A stretch of 64,000 bases of DNA, from contig NZ_VATY01000001.1 in assembly GCF_005885635.1 (NCBI RefSeq), positions 62,001-126,000 of the forward strand, in the 5' to 3' direction. This document shows, piece after piece, positions 23,767 to 32,915 of this stretch. Position 1 is the first letter of the stretch; the number at the start of each line of letters is the position of its first letter. A model generated the notes under the pieces. The model did not search any database and was not told where the DNA came from. It was given only the letters and a program-made list of their open reading frames with translations. The DNA comes from Maribacter algarum (ex Zhang et al. 2020). Its GTDB lineage: Bacteria > Bacteroidota > Bacteroidia > Flavobacteriales > Flavobacteriaceae. A program made the translations under genes and the position numbers.

Positions 23767-24324
23767 ATGGAAGTAATTCTTAAACCCTGGCCATGGTATG
23801 TTTCTGGTCCGCTTATCGCTTTGGTAATGGCAATTTTAGTTTTCTTCGGAAAGACCTTTGGAATGTCCTCAAACCTTCGAACCTTATGTTCTATTGGAGG
23901 TGCCGGAAAATACGCTGATTTTTTCAGATTCGATTGGAAAGCCCAAAAGTGGAATCTTACCGTAGTTCTAGGAGCGATTATTGGCGGGTTTATTGCCGTC
24001 CAATTTCTATCAGACGGCTCAGCAATCGATTTGAATCCAGAAACAATTGCTGACTTAAACACTTTGGGATTTCAAAATGCTGGTGCTACATTATTACCTG
24101 CGGAAATTTATCATTGGGATAGTATCATGACTTTTAAAGGTTTTTCCATCTTAGTCCTTGCCGGATTCTTGGTTGGGTTCGGAACCCGCTATGCCGGAGG
24201 TTGTACTTCAGGTCATGCGATTACTGGTTTAAGCAATCTACAACTCCCCTCTCTAATTGCAGTAATTGGATTTTTTATTGGAGGACTCCTAATGACTCAC
24301 TTTTTACTTCCCCTAATCTTTTAA
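23767..24324 (+). CDS. YeeE/YedE family sulfur transporter, first half
   Basis: 185 residues, hydrophobic, with about four or five helices. It carries the first half of a YeeE/YedE (DUF395) transporter: CSIGGAGKYADFF, then GFGTRYAGGCTSGHAITGLS, where the Cys in GGCTSGH is the conserved sulfur-handling residue of thiosulfate importers such as TsuA. The second half is a separate gene starting 3 bp after the stop. The pair probably assembles into one inner-membrane carrier for thiosulfate or other reduced sulfur. Starts 91 bp after the lipoprotein gene. Confidence 0.87.
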   Translation: MEVILKPWPWYVSGPLIALVMAILVFFGKTFGMSSNLRTLCSIGGAGKYADFFRFDWKAQKWNLTVVLGAIIGGFIAVQFLSDGSAIDLNPETIADLNTLGFQNAGATLLPAEIYHWDSIMTFKGFSILVLAGFLVGFGTRYAGGCTSGHAITGLSNLQLPSLIAVIGFFIGGLLMTHFLLPLIF

Positions 24325-24326
24325 GT

Positions 24327-24740
24327 ATGAAATTTTTAAAATTCTTATTCGTTGGTATTTTCTTCGGAATTATTCTTGTAAAATCGGAAGCCGTTTCTTG
24401 GTATCGTATTTTTGAAATGTTCAAGTTTCAATCTTTCCATATGTTTGGAATTATCGGTTCAGCAGTTTTTCTAGGGATTCTATTTCTATGGATTTTTAGA
24501 AGATTCAAGGTGAAAAGTATAGAAGGTAACGAAATACACTTAGCCCCAAAAGATAAAAGCTTTGCCCGATACATCATTGGAGGTACCATTTTTGGGCTTG
24601 GATGGGCATTAGCAGGTGCTTGTCCTGGACCTATGTACATACTTCTGGGTACTGGCGTTAGCAGTATGCTTTTGGTAATTGCCGCAGCAACTTTAGGCAC
24701 CTTTGTTTATGGAGTTCTTAAAAACAAACTTCCACACTAG
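24327..24740 (+). CDS. YeeE/YedE family sulfur transporter, second half (DUF6691-like)
   Basis: 137 residues from the ATG at 24327 (MKFLKFLFVGIFFGIILVKS), chosen because an earlier in-frame start would read inside the first half gene. Four hydrophobic helices. The conserved Cys lies in GLGWALAGACPGPMYILLG, the counterpart of the GGCTSGH Cys of the first half. With its partner it makes the complete eight- to nine-helix transporter. The gene end overlaps the convergent GH16 gene by 4 bp. Confidence 0.87.
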   Translation: MKFLKFLFVGIFFGIILVKSEAVSWYRIFEMFKFQSFHMFGIIGSAVFLGILFLWIFRRFKVKSIEGNEIHLAPKDKSFARYIIGGTIFGLGWALAGACPGPMYILLGTGVSSMLLVIAAATLGTFVYGVLKNKLPH

Positions 24741-25543
24741 TTCTTGTATACTCTTACATAATCAATAACAAATTCTTGAGGTAAGACACTGTCGTCAATA
24801 TCATGCCCCCCAAAATTACCTCCTATCGCACTATTTAAAATCAAATAAAATGGTTGGTCAAAAGGCCAAATTTCTTTGGTGTGCACTTTGGGTTCAAAAG
24901 AATACAGTAAATCCCCATCCACATAAAAATCTATTTTTTTGGGTGACCAGTCTGCAACATAGGTATGAAAACCTTCCTCAATATCATCAATCTTAGTCTT
25001 TTTGGTATTTATTGTTTCACCGTGGCTATCTTTTGTATGCAATGAGTTAAAAACGATATGAGGTTCCCGACCTACATATTCCAAAATGTCGATTTCACCA
25101 CAAAGGGGCCAACCGACCTCTCGATGGTTCGAACCTAACATCCAAATTGCGGGCCAAATACCTTTGCCAATTGGCAGCTTTGCTCTAGCTTCTACTCTAC
25201 CATATTGAAATTCGAACTTCTTCTCTGTCGTAATTCTTGTAGATGTATATGCAGTATCTTCCTTCCTGATTTGAATATGAAGAAACCCGTTTTTAAGGGT
25301 ATGATTTGTTTTGGTATAGATTTGAGGTTCGTTATTCCCCCATCCGCAGAGATTTGGGCAACCATCACCCAATTCATAGTTCCAGAGTTTTTCATTCAGA
25401 GAAGTTCCATCAAACTCTTCAGACCAAACCAAGGAATCGGATGCTACTTCGATGGAGTATTCAATTTGATTTGGTAGCATGGCGTTTTGACCAAATCCAT
25501 AAAAAAAAATAGCTGTAAAAATTAACAGAAATAGACTTTTCAT
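24737..25543 (-). CDS. GH16 endo-beta-1,3-glucanase (laminarinase)
   Basis: 268 residues from the ATG at 25543, which gives a signal peptide (MKSLFLLIFTAIFFYGFG). Single GH16 catalytic domain from VWSEEFDGTSLNEKLW to DYVRVYKN. Catalytic motif E150-I-D152-I-L-E155 (nucleophile E150, acid/base E155), with the strand GIWPAIWMLGSN before it and NSAIGGNFGG after it, typical of the laminarinase subgroup (GH16_3). It hydrolyses beta-1,3 links of laminarin outside the cell. It lacks a lipobox, so may be periplasmic or secreted. A terminator separates it from the larger GH16 upstream, so it likely has its own promoter or depends on read-through. Confidence 0.94.
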   Translation of the reverse strand: MKSLFLLIFTAIFFYGFGQNAMLPNQIEYSIEVASDSLVWSEEFDGTSLNEKLWNYELGDGCPNLCGWGNNEPQIYTKTNHTLKNGFLHIQIRKEDTAYTSTRITTEKKFEFQYGRVEARAKLPIGKGIWPAIWMLGSNHREVGWPLCGEIDILEYVGREPHIVFNSLHTKDSHGETINTKKTKIDDIEEGFHTYVADWSPKKIDFYVDGDLLYSFEPKVHTKEIWPFDQPFYLILNSAIGGNFGGHDIDDSVLPQEFVIDYVRVYKN

Positions 25544-25555
25544 ATCCAAAAAATT

Positions 25556-25586
25556 AAAAAAGCCAATGGCGGGGGAAACCATTGGC
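25556..25586 (-). terminator. Intrinsic terminator after the large GH16 gene
   Basis: Minus-strand reading: GCCAATGG-TTTCCCCCG-CCATTGGC hairpin (perfect 8-bp stem, 9-base loop), then TTTTTT. It sits 21 bp after the large GH16 stop and 18 bp before the small GH16 start. Confidence 0.8.
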
Positions 25587-25607: not shown

Positions 25608-27716
25608 TTATTGATAAACTCTAATATAGTCTACTTCCATTGTGTCCTCTGTAAATGCCGGATCAATGCTTCCACCTAAGGTACCACCCATAGCAATGTT
25701 CATTATAAAGAAGAAATCACTATTAAAAGGCGTATCTGTTGTGTTTGCAAAACTGGTGTGAATCAACTCATCATCAACGACAAATTTGATGCTGTCGGCT
25801 GTCCATTCCATGGTATAATTATGGAATTCTGAAGTAGCTGTTGGCACGGAAGTAGAACTTGTAACTGCACTACCTCCAGAATTGCCCGGGTAATGTAAGG
25901 CACTAGAAACGACATTAGGATTATTACCAACATGTTCCATGATATCCATTTCTCCACAAGTAGGCCATCCCACTTCATCAAAGTTTGCTCCTAATGTCCA
26001 TAAGGCCGGCCATGTACCTCCAGCTGAAGGAAGTTTGGCTCTAATCTCAACTCTACCATACGTGAACTCATACAGGTTCTCTGATTTAATTCGAGCAGAG
26101 GTATACGCAGCATCTCCAGTTGGACTAACTCCGAAATCAAAGAATAGAACAAATCTGTCATAGTTAAACGTTGGATCAACGGCAGGGGCTGCAGCGCTAA
26201 GATCAAAAGTTAGGGTCTCCCATGCATTTGCTACCGTTGTATTCGCATCAATCTCAAGGAATTTAGTATTATCACCTTTGTCTTCAATCTTCAATCTAAC
26301 TACGGCACCTACTGCTGGAGACCACGTTTTAATGCTTATACTCGTAGAGTTCACTAAATCGAGTGGAGTATCCAAATCGAAAAAGGATCCGGCCCAGACT
26401 TCAGCGCCAACTGGTTTTGTTGACTGTGCAACTTTGCTTGTTGTATTTTCGCCACTGGCATCTGGATTATCAATAACTTCAGTACTAGTACCGCCAAAAC
26501 CTGTAAATGCAGGTGCTGTTCCTTCGAAATCTTCAATTGTAGAAGTTCCTCCACCTATAGCTACCAAGGTCACGTCATCATAGTAATGCAAAACATTTCC
26601 ATTATCTCCAGAGCCTATAGCAGTAATCTTTAGCATACCGCCTTCAACTTTAACATTTGCAGGATCATCGGTATAGGACTGGGCCTCACCATTACCCCAG
26701 CCACCGGCACCTAAATCATAGGTCCAGTTAGCCGGATTTGGCGCTCCATCAACGTCAAATTCATCAGACCAAACTAAGTTTGTAAATACAGTCTCTAAGC
26801 TTTCATCACCAGTATTCATTTGTGCTTCAGCAGTAAATCTATGGTACCAGGCTAAATCAGGATTCGCGGTGTCATATGTTCTGACATGTAACGAATTTTC
26901 AGTAATTGATAATATTTCATAAGTCGAAGAACCTACATAGTAGCCCATGAACCCTCCATCGGCAAAATCCATTTGGATTCCTGTTGTTTCAGTAGCGGGC
27001 ACATTACCATCAACCATTGATATGGTTACGGCCTTTTCACCTGAAGCATCAAAATCATAACAAAGATCCATATCTCCTGTACCCCCAGCTGCTGCAAGAT
27101 GTCCCACATTAAAATAAGTCTGTCCCTTGTTATCCAAAGAATAAGTTACTTCTCCGCTACTATTGATTGAAAAAGTCAATTCGTCATCACATAAACAATC
27201 TGAATCCTCGCTCCCACATTTTTCGAAAGCTTGGGCCGAGTACCATTTTGGGTACCACCAATCTCCGTCAATTCCTTCACGTGCAGGCCCAACTCCAAGG
27301 TGTCCAGGTTCAGAAGCCGCCAAAAACCAAGTTTTAGTTGTACCATTGGTCAACAAGTTAATTTCCGCGGGTATTTCGGCAGCAATACTTACAGATACCT
27401 GCACCGTTTCAGTAATACTAGATCCTGCTTCATCAAATGCAGTTATGGTAATTGTATATGTATTATCACCAGTCATATCATATGTTTTAACAATATAACC
27501 AGTTAGAGACTCAGCTGTTGTACCGTCACCAAAATCAAAAGTGTACGATTTTGCTCCCTGAGCTGTTGCCGTTATGGTAACTGTTCCCGAACCGTCCATA
27601 CTAACTTCTGAAGTCGCTGCAAGATTTGCCAATGGCAAAACAGCAGGACCATCGTCATCTTCACAACTCAAAGTGATTGCGAATAAACAAATAAATAGAT
27701 ACTTTAATTTTTTCAT
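25608..27716 (-). CDS. Multidomain GH16 laminarinase lipoprotein with PKD and an inserted CBM-like domain
   Basis: 702 residues from the ATG at 27716 (signal KKLKYLFICLFAITLSC, Cys18, followed by an acidic tether typical of surface export). Domains: PKD (about 29-110, YTFDFGDGTTAES); a module of about 185 residues (115-300) shared with the next gene; GH16 from WSDEF (316), interrupted at about 371-537, then resuming at AYTSARIKSEN; catalytic E589-M-D591-I-M-E594. The inserted part holds TIEDFEG ... FVLFFDFGVSPTGD, a carbohydrate-binding beta-sandwich. The role is surface degradation of beta-1,3-glucan. Start chosen against the in-frame 27803, which gives no signal. Confidence 0.92.
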   Translation of the reverse strand: MKKLKYLFICLFAITLSCEDDDGPAVLPLANLAATSEVSMDGSGTVTITATAQGAKSYTFDFGDGTTAESLTGYIVKTYDMTGDNTYTITITAFDEAGSSITETVQVSVSIAAEIPAEINLLTNGTTKTWFLAASEPGHLGVGPAREGIDGDWWYPKWYSAQAFEKCGSEDSDCLCDDELTFSINSSGEVTYSLDNKGQTYFNVGHLAAAGGTGDMDLCYDFDASGEKAVTISMVDGNVPATETTGIQMDFADGGFMGYYVGSSTYEILSITENSLHVRTYDTANPDLAWYHRFTAEAQMNTGDESLETVFTNLVWSDEFDVDGAPNPANWTYDLGAGGWGNGEAQSYTDDPANVKVEGGMLKITAIGSGDNGNVLHYYDDVTLVAIGGGTSTIEDFEGTAPAFTGFGGTSTEVIDNPDASGENTTSKVAQSTKPVGAEVWAGSFFDLDTPLDLVNSTSISIKTWSPAVGAVVRLKIEDKGDNTKFLEIDANTTVANAWETLTFDLSAAAPAVDPTFNYDRFVLFFDFGVSPTGDAAYTSARIKSENLYEFTYGRVEIRAKLPSAGGTWPALWTLGANFDEVGWPTCGEMDIMEHVGNNPNVVSSALHYPGNSGGSAVTSSTSVPTATSEFHNYTMEWTADSIKFVVDDELIHTSFANTTDTPFNSDFFFIMNIAMGGTLGGSIDPAFTEDTMEVDYIRVYQ

Positions 27717-27813: not shown

Positions 27814-29751
27814 CTATTTATGGAAATAGACGTTATCTACATAAATCGTTATCGCTCCAGATGGATCTCCAGAGTAAATTAGCTGAGCTATGTTAGCTGT
27901 ATTTACAAGACCAGTAAAATCTGTCAAAGGAATGTCCACACTAACCCATTCTCCTTGATTCGGATTAGTTATCGCGATTTCATGTTCCACATCGTCACCG
28001 CCGTCAAAAGCACCATCAGGTCCAAAGTCAACTAATTTGATTCTAACTTCGGTAGCATCTGCTGTCCAAATATCTGTATGGAAGTGTGTCATTGTCGTAG
28101 CATCAATCTGACTCGAAACGGTTTCAGCCCCAACAAAGTTTAATTCGCTATACTTTTTGACATCATCCCCTGCCACCATTATATCTTCTAAAGAAGCTTG
28201 GGACCAATCTGTTCTCCAAGTATCAACAGCTACATTCGTATAAGCATTACTAAACATTGAAATTACATCAGTAGCATCTAAAGATGGTGTCGGAGCAGCG
28301 CTTGTAGGTCCAGTAGGAGTCGTGGTACCAGCATCATAGAAGTACACGTTATCTATATACACTGTTAACGCACCGGAAGGGTCTCCAGAGTAAATCAACT
28401 GCGCTATATTAGCTTTAGTAGTCAATCCGGCGAAATCTGCCAAAGGAAGGTCTAAACTCACCCATTCTCCTTGAGCCGGACTTGACACCACAATCTCATG
28501 TTCAACATCATCTCCACCGTCAAAAGCTCCGTCGGCACCAAAATCAACTAATTTGATTCGTATTTCAGTTGCATCTGCGGTCCAAATATCTGTATGGAAA
28601 TGTGTCATCGCTGAGGCATCTATCTGACTTGATACGGTCTCAACACCAACAAAGTTCAACTCACTATATTTCTTAGTTGCATCACCAGCCACATCAACAT
28701 CTTCTAAGGTGGCCTGCGACCAATCCGTTCGCCATGTATCCACGGCAACATCGGTATAGGCATCGCTAAAGAGAGATATCACGTTCGCTGCGTCTACTGT
28801 TGGCACAGGGGCAGCAGCTGAAGGCTCCATATCGTTTCCGGGTGTAGGGGGAGTTGCTGGTTCTGAAGCAAACATATGGTACCAAGCCAAATCAGGATTG
28901 GCTGTATCGTAAGTTCTTACATGTAAAGAATTTTCAGTAATGGAAAGTATCTCATAAGTTGAAGAACCTACGTAGTATCCCATAAAACCACCATCAGCAA
29001 TATCCATTTGTATGCCAGTTGTTTGGTCATCAGGAACATTTCCAGATACCATAGATAAAGCTACAGACTTAGACCCTGAGGTATCAAAATCATAACATAA
29101 ATCCGTATCACCTGAACCTCCCGCCGCGGCAAGATGTCCAACATTGAAATACGTTTGCCCATTATTATTTAGTTCATAGGTAACTTCTCCAGCACTATTG
29201 ACAGAGAAGGTAAGTTCATCATCACACAAACAATCCGATTCTTCACTACCACATTTTTCGAAAGCCATTGCGGAGTACCACTTAGGATACCACCAATCCC
29301 CATCAATTCCTTCACGTGCAGGTCCAACCCCAAGGTGTCCTGGTTCAGAAGCTGCCAAATACCAAGTTTTAGTAGTACCACTTGTCAACAAATTAATTTC
29401 CGCGGGAATCTCGGCATCTACACTAACTGAAACTTGCACAGTTTCTGTGATACTAGATCCAGCTTCATCAATAGCTGTGATAGTTACAGTATACGTATTA
29501 TCCCCAGTCATCTCATAGGTCTTTACGATATAACCCGTTAGTGATTCACCTGTAGTTCCGTCACCAAAATCAAAAGTATATGATTTTGCTCCCTGCGCAG
29601 CAGCTCTGATGGTAACTGTACCGGAACCATCCATAGTAACTTCCGATGTGGCAGCAAGGTTTGCCAATGGCAAAACCACTGGGCTGTCGTCTTCCTCACA
29701 ACTCAAGGTGAATGCTAATAAACAGATTACTAAATACTTTAATTTTTTCAT
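27814..29751 (-). CDS. Surface glycan-binding lipoprotein with PKD and two CBM-like repeats
   Basis: 645 residues, no catalytic domain. Lipoprotein signal (LLAFTLSC, Cys18, then EEDD). PKD about 30-110 and a second module about 115-297, both nearly the same as in the GH16 lipoprotein downstream. After a Pro/Thr linker come two similar units of about 157 residues (316-472 and 487-643), each starting P-T-x-D-A-x-x-V-I-S and ending VYIDNVYF, a beta-sandwich binding fold. The likely role is to hold laminarin at the surface for the two GH16 enzymes, in the position of a SusE/SusF-type protein. No SusC/SusD genes are nearby. Confidence 0.85.
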   Translation of the reverse strand: MKKLKYLVICLLAFTLSCEEDDSPVVLPLANLAATSEVTMDGSGTVTIRAAAQGAKSYTFDFGDGTTGESLTGYIVKTYEMTGDNTYTVTITAIDEAGSSITETVQVSVSVDAEIPAEINLLTSGTTKTWYLAASEPGHLGVGPAREGIDGDWWYPKWYSAMAFEKCGSEESDCLCDDELTFSVNSAGEVTYELNNNGQTYFNVGHLAAAGGSGDTDLCYDFDTSGSKSVALSMVSGNVPDDQTTGIQMDIADGGFMGYYVGSSTYEILSITENSLHVRTYDTANPDLAWYHMFASEPATPPTPGNDMEPSAAAPVPTVDAANVISLFSDAYTDVAVDTWRTDWSQATLEDVDVAGDATKKYSELNFVGVETVSSQIDASAMTHFHTDIWTADATEIRIKLVDFGADGAFDGGDDVEHEIVVSSPAQGEWVSLDLPLADFAGLTTKANIAQLIYSGDPSGALTVYIDNVYFYDAGTTTPTGPTSAAPTPSLDATDVISMFSNAYTNVAVDTWRTDWSQASLEDIMVAGDDVKKYSELNFVGAETVSSQIDATTMTHFHTDIWTADATEVRIKLVDFGPDGAFDGGDDVEHEIAITNPNQGEWVSVDIPLTDFTGLVNTANIAQLIYSGDPSGAITIYVDNVYFHK

Positions 29752-30053: not shown

Positions 30054-32915
30054 TCAGATTTCCATTATATAGTCCGTAAGACCATCTTCGTGAGGAAGAT
30101 TCATTTTTTTACGCAAACGATAGCGTTTTACTTCAACGCTTCGAACAGAGATATTAAGTAATGGGGCAATCTCTTTTGAAGATAGATTTAATCTGAGATA
30201 AGCGCATAAACGCAAGTCGTTTGCCGTTAGTCCGGGATGCGTATTCTTCACTTTTTTTAGAAAATCTTTATCCGCATTATTAAAGGCATCCTCAAAGAAC
30301 TTCCAATCATCGGAGTTATTAATATTTCGGTCTATCGTACGAATGACGGACTTAACTTGCGGGTTTTCCTCACTGCCTTTAAGTTGATCTTTAATAGCAT
30401 TTAAAAACTCATTCTTTTTAATTATACTCATCGTTGAAATCGCCAGCTCTCTGTTCTTACTTTCAACTTCTTCTCGTAATTTCTCGTTTTTAATCTGAAT
30501 GATTTTCTTTTGAGATTTTAGCTTTTTACGCTTTAACTTCTTCTTGTTTTCATTCAAAAGTTGCTCTCGCTGTTTTTTATAATAGTTCTTATACAATCTG
30601 TGAATTAGAAGGGAGAGAAGCACAAATCCCAGTACATATATGAAGATTGCAAAGTTAGAGAGGTACCATGGTCTTTCAATTCTAAAGGCATAAGTGGCTG
30701 TATTCATTGAAAGGTGACCCCCTATTTTCGCCCTGACTTTAAATTCGTAATTACCAAATGGCAAATTCTCAAAAGATATATTTGAAGTACGCGACCAATC
30801 GCTCCAAACGTCATATATACCTTCCAATTGGTACTGATAATTGACTTCGGTATACTTGTCAAATTCGGGAACATTATATGAGAAGAACAGATTGTTCTTA
30901 GAAAATTCAAAGTGAGCGTTATTCTCTTTGGAAACTTTCTCTTTGGCAGAATCACTGGTTTTGTTGGATATGGAATTGATTAGAACTTGATACTCTTTAG
31001 AAGCTAACTTATTCAAATCTACGGTTAGGTAACCGTTGGAAATCCCTACTAAATACTTCTCATCGCCTAAGGGAGTTAAACTCTCAAAGCCTAAAACTCC
31101 TAGGTTTTTACGGACATATGCGGGAATTGCTATTTTGTTTATTTCGGAATTTGCATCAAACTTCCCTGGAGAAGCATAGGCAATACTATGGCTAGTAAAG
31201 CACCAAAGACGTTTTGATTTTTCGTCAGGAATGAAAATACCAATGGGGTTATCAGAGCCTTCATAAAATGCATTGGTAAGTAATGTGTCAAGAACAAATT
31301 TGGCTTGACTGGAATTGTATTTAAAAATTCCGTTATCACATGTATAAAGGATATCATCCAAGTAGGTGACCAAACTAGCACCAACACCTTTGGAAACTTC
31401 ATTTTCAACCTTGACGACTTTTCTATAATCCTTACTTAAATTCAATTTAAAAACACCTTTCAGTTCGCGATTTACGACTATTCGATTCTCGCCAACAAAT
31501 TCAAAAAAACGACTTGATATATCAAAACCTTCAACTTCATTTCTTAATGTCCATTTGCCATTGAGCTTTTCTAAAACACTTAAACCATTGAAATTTCCTT
31601 GAAGCAATAGATTATTGTGACTTGGAATAGGCTTCATATCCCACGTACCGGGGAAATCAGAAATGAGCTCTGCCCTGTCCTGTTCTATTTTAAAAGTACC
31701 TTTATTATGTCCACAGAAAAGAGTTATATTGATTACTTTCAACAACCAGACTTGACCCTCAGTACCTTTAACAAAACGGAAATCTTCATCACTATTGACG
31801 GGTTTATAAAATAGACCCTGATTGGTTCCCAAATACAAATAATCATTGAATATCGCAGATGCGTAAACTACTCCTAACTTTCCATTCTTATCAATGTACT
31901 CATTGAACGGAGAATCAATATTAACAACACTGATTCCGTTATCAAGAGCCAACCACAAATTGTTTTCTGTATCCTCAAAAAGGGATAATACAGTATTATT
32001 ATTAAGACCTTTTTCTTGGTTGATTTTTTGAAGTGTTTTACCTTCTTTATCAATATGTAAAATTCCATTAGAAATGGTTCCTAGAACAATGCTGTCATCA
32101 TCTAATTGAAGGCTGCTATAAACATTTATCAATGTAGACTGCTGTTTCAAGGAAGTTTTCCATTCTATTAAACTTCCATTAACCATAAAATAGAATTCTC
32201 CCTCTTCAGTTACAAGAAGCGGTTTATTCTCAATAGCAAATATTCCGGTGATTATGGAATTCTTGAGAATAGGGTCATCAGATACTAAAACAGATTTGCC
32301 GTTTTCAATTTTAAAGAGTCCATTCTCAGTGCTATGAAAATAGATAGTTCCATTAAAATTAAACATGTGAGCTTTAGTAGATTTAGAGTCAATCACCTTA
32401 ATGGTTTTGTCTGAAGTATTATAAATATAAATACGCTCAAGGCTTTGAAAGAGCACCCACTCATCTAACTCCACTATGTTCCAGAACTCCTCATCTTCTA
32501 GTAAAGGAAAAGTCAGGCCATTGCTTATTGAGGTGTATTCCAAGTCGCCCACAGCATTCTTTTCCCAAAAACCAAACTCCATGTAACAACCTGTATAAAC
32601 CGTATTGTCTAAAGCTTTTACAGACCGAATGGTTGAACCATTGGGTGATCCATACAATTTCCATACCGCACCATTGAATTCGAGGAGTCCACCATTATTG
32701 GCTGCATAGATGTTTTTTTGCTTGGACTGAGAAATACCCCAGTTTTGGTTTTCAGCACCATAATCAATTGGAGAAAAATTTTCAATTGGGGGAAGTTCTT
32801 GGGCAATCACTAATTTTTGTGAAGCCAATAAAGCGAATATGAATAGTATCCATATATACCTTAAGATAGGAATGTTTTCTTTGGAAGAAAAAGAGAGGCT
32901 AGACAATTTCAGCAC
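30054..32915 (-). CDS. Membrane-spanning sensor-regulator: Reg_prop propeller, Y_Y_Y domain and LuxR-type HTH
   Basis: 953 residues. A signal or first membrane segment (about 20-38), then a two-component-regulator-type beta-propeller with blade signatures such as VLSLFEDTENNLWLALDNGI; a Y_Y_Y domain near 690-748; a membrane helix at 752-775; a basic coiled coil at about 776-840; and a LuxR-type HTH at 893-953 (SSKEIAPLLNISVRSVEVKR). No histidine kinase or receiver domain, so it passes an extracellular glycan signal straight to DNA. The start is GTG at 32915, overlapping clpS by 17 bp; TTG at 32906 is an alternative. Likely activator of the laminarin genes. Confidence 0.88.
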   Translation of the reverse strand: MLKLSSLSFSSKENIPILRYIWILFIFALLASQKLVIAQELPPIENFSPIDYGAENQNWGISQSKQKNIYAANNGGLLEFNGAVWKLYGSPNGSTIRSVKALDNTVYTGCYMEFGFWEKNAVGDLEYTSISNGLTFPLLEDEEFWNIVELDEWVLFQSLERIYIYNTSDKTIKVIDSKSTKAHMFNFNGTIYFHSTENGLFKIENGKSVLVSDDPILKNSIITGIFAIENKPLLVTEEGEFYFMVNGSLIEWKTSLKQQSTLINVYSSLQLDDDSIVLGTISNGILHIDKEGKTLQKINQEKGLNNNTVLSLFEDTENNLWLALDNGISVVNIDSPFNEYIDKNGKLGVVYASAIFNDYLYLGTNQGLFYKPVNSDEDFRFVKGTEGQVWLLKVINITLFCGHNKGTFKIEQDRAELISDFPGTWDMKPIPSHNNLLLQGNFNGLSVLEKLNGKWTLRNEVEGFDISSRFFEFVGENRIVVNRELKGVFKLNLSKDYRKVVKVENEVSKGVGASLVTYLDDILYTCDNGIFKYNSSQAKFVLDTLLTNAFYEGSDNPIGIFIPDEKSKRLWCFTSHSIAYASPGKFDANSEINKIAIPAYVRKNLGVLGFESLTPLGDEKYLVGISNGYLTVDLNKLASKEYQVLINSISNKTSDSAKEKVSKENNAHFEFSKNNLFFSYNVPEFDKYTEVNYQYQLEGIYDVWSDWSRTSNISFENLPFGNYEFKVRAKIGGHLSMNTATYAFRIERPWYLSNFAIFIYVLGFVLLSLLIHRLYKNYYKKQREQLLNENKKKLKRKKLKSQKKIIQIKNEKLREEVESKNRELAISTMSIIKKNEFLNAIKDQLKGSEENPQVKSVIRTIDRNINNSDDWKFFEDAFNNADKDFLKKVKNTHPGLTANDLRLCAYLRLNLSSKEIAPLLNISVRSVEVKRYRLRKKMNLPHEDGLTDYIMEI

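Follow-up and report, generated by a model that had tools for sequence, protein, structure and literature searches.

An X584-type domain nested, apparently in circularly permuted order, within the GH16 domain of a putative Maribacter algarum laminarinase

The window analyzed here is a stretch of 64,000 nucleotides of Maribacter algarum (contig NZ_VATY01000001.1, positions 62,001 to 126,000). The gene at 25608-27716 on the minus strand encodes, as an earlier note on this DNA had stated, a protein of 702 residues (codons 25611-27716), the features of which are collected in Table 1 together with those of the adjoining genes. The reading as a lipoprotein was made by eye and agrees with the lipoprotein signal described for a Maribacter homologue (Kalenborn 2024, PMC11345257). 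The N-terminal region that resembles PDB 7kv5 is probably glycan-binding.

Table 1. Features of the GH16 gene and of two adjoining genes; positions refer to the window.
Feature	Residues	Position	Strand	Evidence or remark
Signal peptide and lipobox cysteine	1-18	27663..27716	-	MKKLKYLFICLFAITLSC; lipoprotein reading by eye
N-terminal region resembling PDB 7kv5 'PKD domain protein'	8-295	26832..27695	-	phmmer E 8.1e-20, chain 12-287
PKD domain	31-109	27390..27626	-	Pfam PKD_4, E 3.2e-07
GH16 catalytic domain, piece 1	310-366	26619..26789	-	PDB 4bq1, first stretch 310-368
Front strand of the insert, corresponding to the last strand of the normal-order domain	374-385	26562..26597	-	NVLHYYDDVTLV; segment (window) test, model strand list
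Linker from front strand to body	386-392	26541..26561	-	DD-to-FE distance 19, inside the inter-unit range of tandem arrays
Insert body, X584 homologue	393-535	26112..26540	-	Normal-order profile; 8qx6
GH16 catalytic domain, piece 2	537-702	25611..26108	-	Pfam Glyco_hydro_16, E 5.1e-25 (538-698); PDB 4bq1, 537-702
GH16 catalytic motif E589-x-D591-x-x-E594	589-594	25935..25952	-	GEMDIMEH at 588-595
Second GH16 gene, without insert		24740..25582	-	Pfam Glyco_hydro_16, E 8.7e-25; plain loop IRKEDTAYTSTRI
Neighbour lipoprotein gene		27817..29751	-	N-terminal 297 residues almost the same as in the GH16 gene, then two other beta domains

The neighbour lipoprotein gene and the GH16 gene are identical in 258 of 297 amino acids and in 713 of 891 nucleotides at their N-terminal ends and diverge thereafter. 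Judged by these identities, the N-terminal module appears to have been copied between the two genes, and modules thus do move between neighbours here. The C-terminal half of the neighbour (27817-28850) contains two tandem domains (TWRTDWSQ ... VYIDNVYF), for which no Pfam match above the Pfam cut-off was found and which probably represent another uncharacterised binding module. At 23767-24740, two overlapping membrane-protein frames resemble, by eye, a YeeE/YedE-type transporter pair. A large sensor-like protein with a C-terminal helix-turn-helix, likewise read by eye, adjoins the laminarinase genes at 30054-32915 and is possibly their regulator.

The closest laminarinases in the PDB align with the protein in two pieces, at about residues 310-368 and 537-702, leaving a gap of approximately 165 residues. 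The GH16 motifs WSDEF (316-320) and GGMLKITA (359-366) are located ahead of this gap, and AYTSARIKSEN (537-547) follows it. The E, D and E columns of the motif E-x-D-x-x-E, which we take to be the GH16 catalytic residues, are invariant in an alignment of 31 rows, from which locus L015 is absent due to the motif filter (its motif reads GEIDVME). In an AlphaFold2 model, the GH16 part matches endo-1,3-glucanase structures across the gap (Foldseek; top match 3azx, E 4.7e-19), which are presumably members of GH16 subfamily 3. The TM score by target length was 0.76-0.86 for 20 of the first 23 matches, with rmsd values of 2.6-10.4 among those 23, the large model being of middling confidence (mean pLDDT 79.5, pTM 0.60). 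According to this model, the GH16 fold appears to close on both sides of the insert. By family, the protein is a predicted surface lipoprotein laminarinase of GH16_3 type. A tryptophan on either side of finger 3, a feature given by Kalenborn 2024 (PMC11345257), is present as well (GGTWPALWTLGANFDEVGWP). Laminarinase activity is reported for Maribacter strains with homologues, not for the present protein.

Residues 374-535 break the GH16 domain between KITA (366) and YTSARI (538), the insert thus sitting inside a single catalytic domain, flanked by the strand that ends in KITA and by the YTSARI strand. The insert opens with NVLHYYDDVTLV (374-385), continues with TIEDFEG (393-399) and closes with FFDFGVSPTGD (525-535). 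The plain GH16 loop measures 6-9 residues from the KITA-like strand to YTSAR in 26 of 27 insert-free rows and 13 residues in L070. By searching genome contigs, the insert was found at the same place and in open frames in 25 of 31 loci of other genomes, the remaining six (L026-L030, L032) being without it. Because of this recurrence, the insert is neither chance nor a single assembly error. The named carriers are Maribacter, Zobellia and Eudoraea, and the rest are Flavobacteriaceae. Among the matches listed, seven of the 299 sampled genomes of the window's family, its own included, contain the nested form; no other listed match covers the nested model in full, and the listing extends to scores far below those of the seven. 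Within the window's own genome, no second copy of the insert was detected at E up to 0.1. The proposal of the earlier note that a domain is inserted within the GH16 domain was thus confirmed by the split of the GH16 matches and by the conservation of the insert, with its residue numbers right to within a few residues; the search for other GH16 proteins of nested order that it had recommended yielded further carriers, and 29 nested proteins are examined below.

Kalenborn 2024 (PMC11345257) puts the interruption after strand 5. Following the alternation of loops along the sequence, the site should be finger 2, between finger 1 and finger 3. Fingers 1 and 3 flank the negative subsites in Crouch 2020 (PMC7419316), and finger 2 is described there as variable, lying over finger 1 in one enzyme and away from the cleft in another.

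A profile of seven normal-order units finds the insert body with 143.0 bits (E 2.4e-41) at model positions 6-148 of 160. Residues 373-539 alone match PDB 8qx6 (E 9.8e-06), entitled "Novel laminarin-binding CBM X584". The normal-order profile aligns with the same entry end to end (2-152 against 5-163 of 165; E 9e-17), closing with FYIDDIE; 8qx6 was its one clear PDB match, two more being partial at 0.05 and 0.083. Likewise, the best fold match of the AlphaFold2 model of a normal unit, the first residue of which was read as M from a TTG codon, was 8qx6 (E 7.2e-07; TM 0.80 by query length and 0.73 by target length). The X584 family, from Christiangramia forsetii, is presumably the one now called CBM102. 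No CBM family appeared among the Pfam matches at E up to 1.

The seven-unit profile matches 153 of the 299 family genomes at E up to 1e-5 (among the matches listed). Two or three normal-order copies with the pattern LPxTFE ... FFNFGxxGTGxTYYFDDI are found in the glycan-binding genes of L028, L030 and L032. On the basis of these alignments, the insert is classified as homologous to a domain of flavobacterial glycan-binding proteins, where its order is the normal one and tandem copies are frequent. Homology to X584 (8qx6) is clear for the insert body as well as for the moved strand; X584 has the normal strand order and occurs free or in tandem, whereas the order in the insert is rotated and the domain nested. 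Aromatic residues common to normal units are mostly kept in nested units (F17, aromatic 51, W75, W109, F114, Y125, F131, F132, F134, Y144 and aromatic 145, in the numbering of a 152-position profile); the exceptions are positions 12, 64 and 143, where the residue differs. By homology, the insert would be expected to bind laminarin.

The strand YYFDDI is the last one in normal-order copies and the first one in all 29 nested GH16 proteins examined. Nested copies match the 160-position profile only from 4-14 to 141-148, and the missing strand is located in front as a HYYDDVTLV-like stretch. To each nested body, every 12-residue window (segment) of its own protein was added and scored against a profile of 62 normal units; 0, 3 or 5 residues were removed from the body end, equally for all segments, and a best segment at most 3 residues from the labelled strand was counted as a hit. 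The front strand was the best completion in 29 of 29 proteins, each with 684-719 segments, although as relatives they do not represent 29 independent tests. It gained 9.8-19.0 bits, as compared to 4.8-9.6 bits for the best segment elsewhere, and the smallest lead was 3.0 bits (L022). For the protein of the window (691 segments), the body scored 160.4 bits, rising to 171.8 with the front strand and to 165.4 with the best other segment; the best register was one residue off the labelled strand. L015 was included in the segment test and in the insert trees; L001 and L066-L068, duplicates of the window or of other loci, entered neither the test nor the trees.

The 62 distinct normal units were picked for an end-to-end match to the 160-position profile, and their YYFDDI ending is therefore partly a matter of choice. 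Outside this set are 25 partial or weak matches, one of which is a cut piece of a nested GH16. Among 17 others with at least 48 bits, 13 reach the last strand and four stop at position 121-123. Normal units matching the profile only to 121-123 were seen in L034, L043, L039 and L063:4839-7061 and may form a subgroup in which, as in 8qx6, a loop is longer. The last seven left-out matches (9-20 bits) belong to the more distant domain that is represented by VYIDNVYF of the neighbour gene.

In the AlphaFold2 model of the nested form, ten strands were predicted in residues 374-527, nine of which have a counterpart in the normal unit when compared by eye. The last of the ten strands of the normal unit, TYYFDDIQL (140-148), is the first in the nested model (model positions 71-83, i.e., residues 374-386), and the normal-unit strand 12-17 has no called counterpart. 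Rotation of the whole insert through 170 start points gave no useful gain against the seven-unit profile (best 141.4 bits, unrotated 140.6 bits) because junction residues sit between body and strand. A domain of normal order at this GH16 position, which the earlier note had named as a finding against its proposal, was not seen in the 299 family genomes among the matches listed, and all seven matches of the whole nested model end before the last strand of the normal profile. The suggestion that the last strand had moved to the front is thus borne out by the segment test, by 8qx6 closing with the same strand and by the strand lists of the models (compared by eye). The yardstick used for it, VYIDNVYF of the neighbour gene, had to be replaced, since the domain to which it belongs is far more distantly related (8.9 and 9.5 bits against the 62-unit profile); the close yardstick is the X584-type unit. 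A nested and circularly permuted insert is supported, and in this reading the front strand would pair inside the sandwich.

Different explanations of the strand order were weighed against this reading. An X584 homologue could simply have lost its last strand, YYDDVTLV being an unrelated strand of an enlarged GH16 loop, so that no permutation took place. The front motif is indeed short, it raises the score by little and leads by no more than 3.0 bits in L022, and its place in the models was read from strand lists. However, no segment of any of the 29 related proteins (684-719 each) completes the body better than the front one, all 29 nested units have Y144, D146 and an aromatic residue at 145, and the spacing between front strand and body equals the spacing in tandem arrays, which makes a loss quite improbable. 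The order of the insert could also be the normal one if the register chosen for the reference units was wrong, as any start is possible in an array and many of the reference units come from arrays. This is very hard to reconcile with the last units of L028, L030 and L032, which close with YYFDDI (or YYFDNI) where the frame ends, with the LPxxFE at which the units of these genes begin, and with the same register in genes with a single strong unit (L049, L051, L062) and in the solved single domain 8qx6.

With regard to the identity of the insert, a derivation from Bacteroides fluxus BfSGBP-B is suggested by Kalenborn 2024 (PMC11345257) with 29% over 290 residues. A stretch of 290 residues cannot be the insert of 165 residues, and we regard this derivation as scarcely credible. 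The match to 7kv5, which we take to be BfSGBP-B, is found at residues 8-295, ahead of the GH16 domain, and a search with residues 373-539 alone recovers 8qx6 but, at E up to 1, no match to 7kv5. By these alignments, the published match appears to fit the N-terminal part of the protein, not the insert. Finally, the permutation may be right and the nested domain may nevertheless serve as a structural spacer or contact surface that has lost glucan binding, which is compatible with the anatomy described here. The expected glucan binding of the insert is drawn from homology, and the changed aromatic positions 12, 64 and 143 would fit such a loss; on the other hand, the nested units retain most of the aromatic positions that normal units have in common, family assignment makes the enzyme a laminarinase, and the entry of the solved relative bears the title of a laminarin-binding module. 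A mere spacer is therefore considered rather unlikely, yet deserving of attention.

The 28 distinct nested bodies form one clade with a support of 100/100 in a tree of 89 rows, from which the long-branch unit L058_388 was dropped and in which the bootstrap was not fully settled; without the units of L063 and L064, the support of the nested clade was 100/99. Among the 61 normal units, no resolved sister of this clade was obtained, the nearest normal unit having a support of 9/73. The moved strand lies at a distance of 18-20 residues from the body in all 29 nested proteins, and the inter-unit distances in tandem arrays are 13-21 residues in 16 of 17 cases and 38 in one, the value of 13 being measured from the second DN (18 from the first). 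Since the nested copies form one clade and their strand-to-body distance is like the inter-unit distance of tandem arrays, a single origin of the rotation is probable.

The nested GH16 gene of L063 and of L064 is immediately preceded by a gene with tandem normal units. The order there is operon-like (L063:314-9167, L064:3821-13180), with two long genes (~1000 and ~500 residues) followed by the tandem X584 gene and the nested GH16 gene; from size and place only, the two long genes are likely SusC and SusD. The tandem gene beside the nested gene in L063 or L064 was considered as direct donor, for which the tree gave no support.

In a GH16 tree calculated without the insert columns (53 rows, of which 26 are carriers), the carriers are found in two places, and a single clade was not rejected (AU p 0.06). 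L015 and L071-L077 were left out of this tree, and 16 of the 23 loci L078-L100 were included; of the others, L078 repeats L069 and six gave no row under the motif filter. Independent origins, considered due to the two places of the carriers, were set aside, as the single insert clade favours one permutation with subsequent loss or transfer. The insert-free sister of the main nested GH16 group is L069, from the genus of the window. At L069:5237-9020, a gene with one strong normal X584 unit adjoins the insert-free GH16 of 547 residues.

The favoured reading as a whole, i.e., a nested and permuted X584-type module of single origin with a role at the cleft, is given a probability of about 0.8. An X584-type, putatively laminarin-binding module is nested in the loop between two neighbouring strands of the GH16_3-type catalytic domain. 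The turn that normally connects its last two strands (FFDFG..GTG / YYFDDI) would have been cut, and a linker resembling those that connect the units of tandem arrays would join the old C-terminal strand to the start of the body. The new ends would then be the strands flanking the cut turn, running almost directly into the two strands of the GH16 hairpin. In this position, the module, acting together with the N-terminal glycan-binding part, could fix a laminarin chain almost rigidly in place and orientation next to that end of the cleft where the negative subsites lie; the chain would thereby remain close to the active site for repeated cuts. One unit length copied from a tandem array but starting in the wrong register could have produced the rotated order at a stroke. 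We would put at even odds the wider proposition that the nested module arose by out-of-register sampling of a tandem repeat, is nearly linkerless, holds the glucan at a fixed angle and was gained once, to be kept or passed between the GH16 backbones of Maribacter, Zobellia, Eudoraea and relatives. If true, cutting a repeat unit at one of its inner turns would leave both ends adjacent and so allow the unit to be placed in an enzyme beta hairpin.

The insert of an already studied marine laminarinase, published as a domain of unknown function, would hereby gain a likely identity, and a reason is offered why family libraries miss it. The arrangement would also be a natural example of a rule of protein engineers, namely to permute a domain until its ends meet and then to insert it in a loop. 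Insert-free relatives, including L069 of the same genus, allow a direct test of what the module contributes to laminarin cutting, which is a large carbon flux in the sea. No published report of the rotation or of the X584 identity of the insert was found in the literature searched; a paper that reportedly describes CBM102 and CBM103 may mention them. CBM36 and CBM60 are a naturally circularly permuted CBM pair, and RoCBM21 is said to have been permuted by engineering. These are circular permutations of a binding module as in the present case; to our knowledge, they are not nested in a catalytic domain.

The interruption as such had been reported: in the Maribacter forsetii GH16_3 laminarinase and 57 homologues, the GH16 domain is interrupted by a "domain of unknown function" (Kalenborn 2024, PMC11345257), and for this reason the newness that the earlier note had claimed is partly lost. 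The M. forsetii enzyme has the same layout of approximately 700 residues, with a lipoprotein signal, a PKD domain, a glucan-binding part and a GH16 domain interrupted after strand 5. The protein of the window belongs to this homologue group, and several of the relatives found here are species named there. The insert is likened in that paper to BfSGBP-B, and its main text contains neither the rotation nor CBM102. SusG (CBM58 within GH13) and Xyn10C-like xylanases (CBM4 within GH10) are likewise surface enzymes of Bacteroidota with a CBM inserted in the catalytic domain, but they belong to other families, and no change of strand order is described for their inserted modules in the passages on them (PMC7848910). 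In SusG and Xyn10C-type enzymes, the inserted CBMs support binding and are fairly independent of the catalytic part in their action (PMC7848910), which speaks for binding and not for tight coupling. In the laminarinase described here, a more rigid link to the catalytic part is suggested by the fact that linkers are nearly absent.
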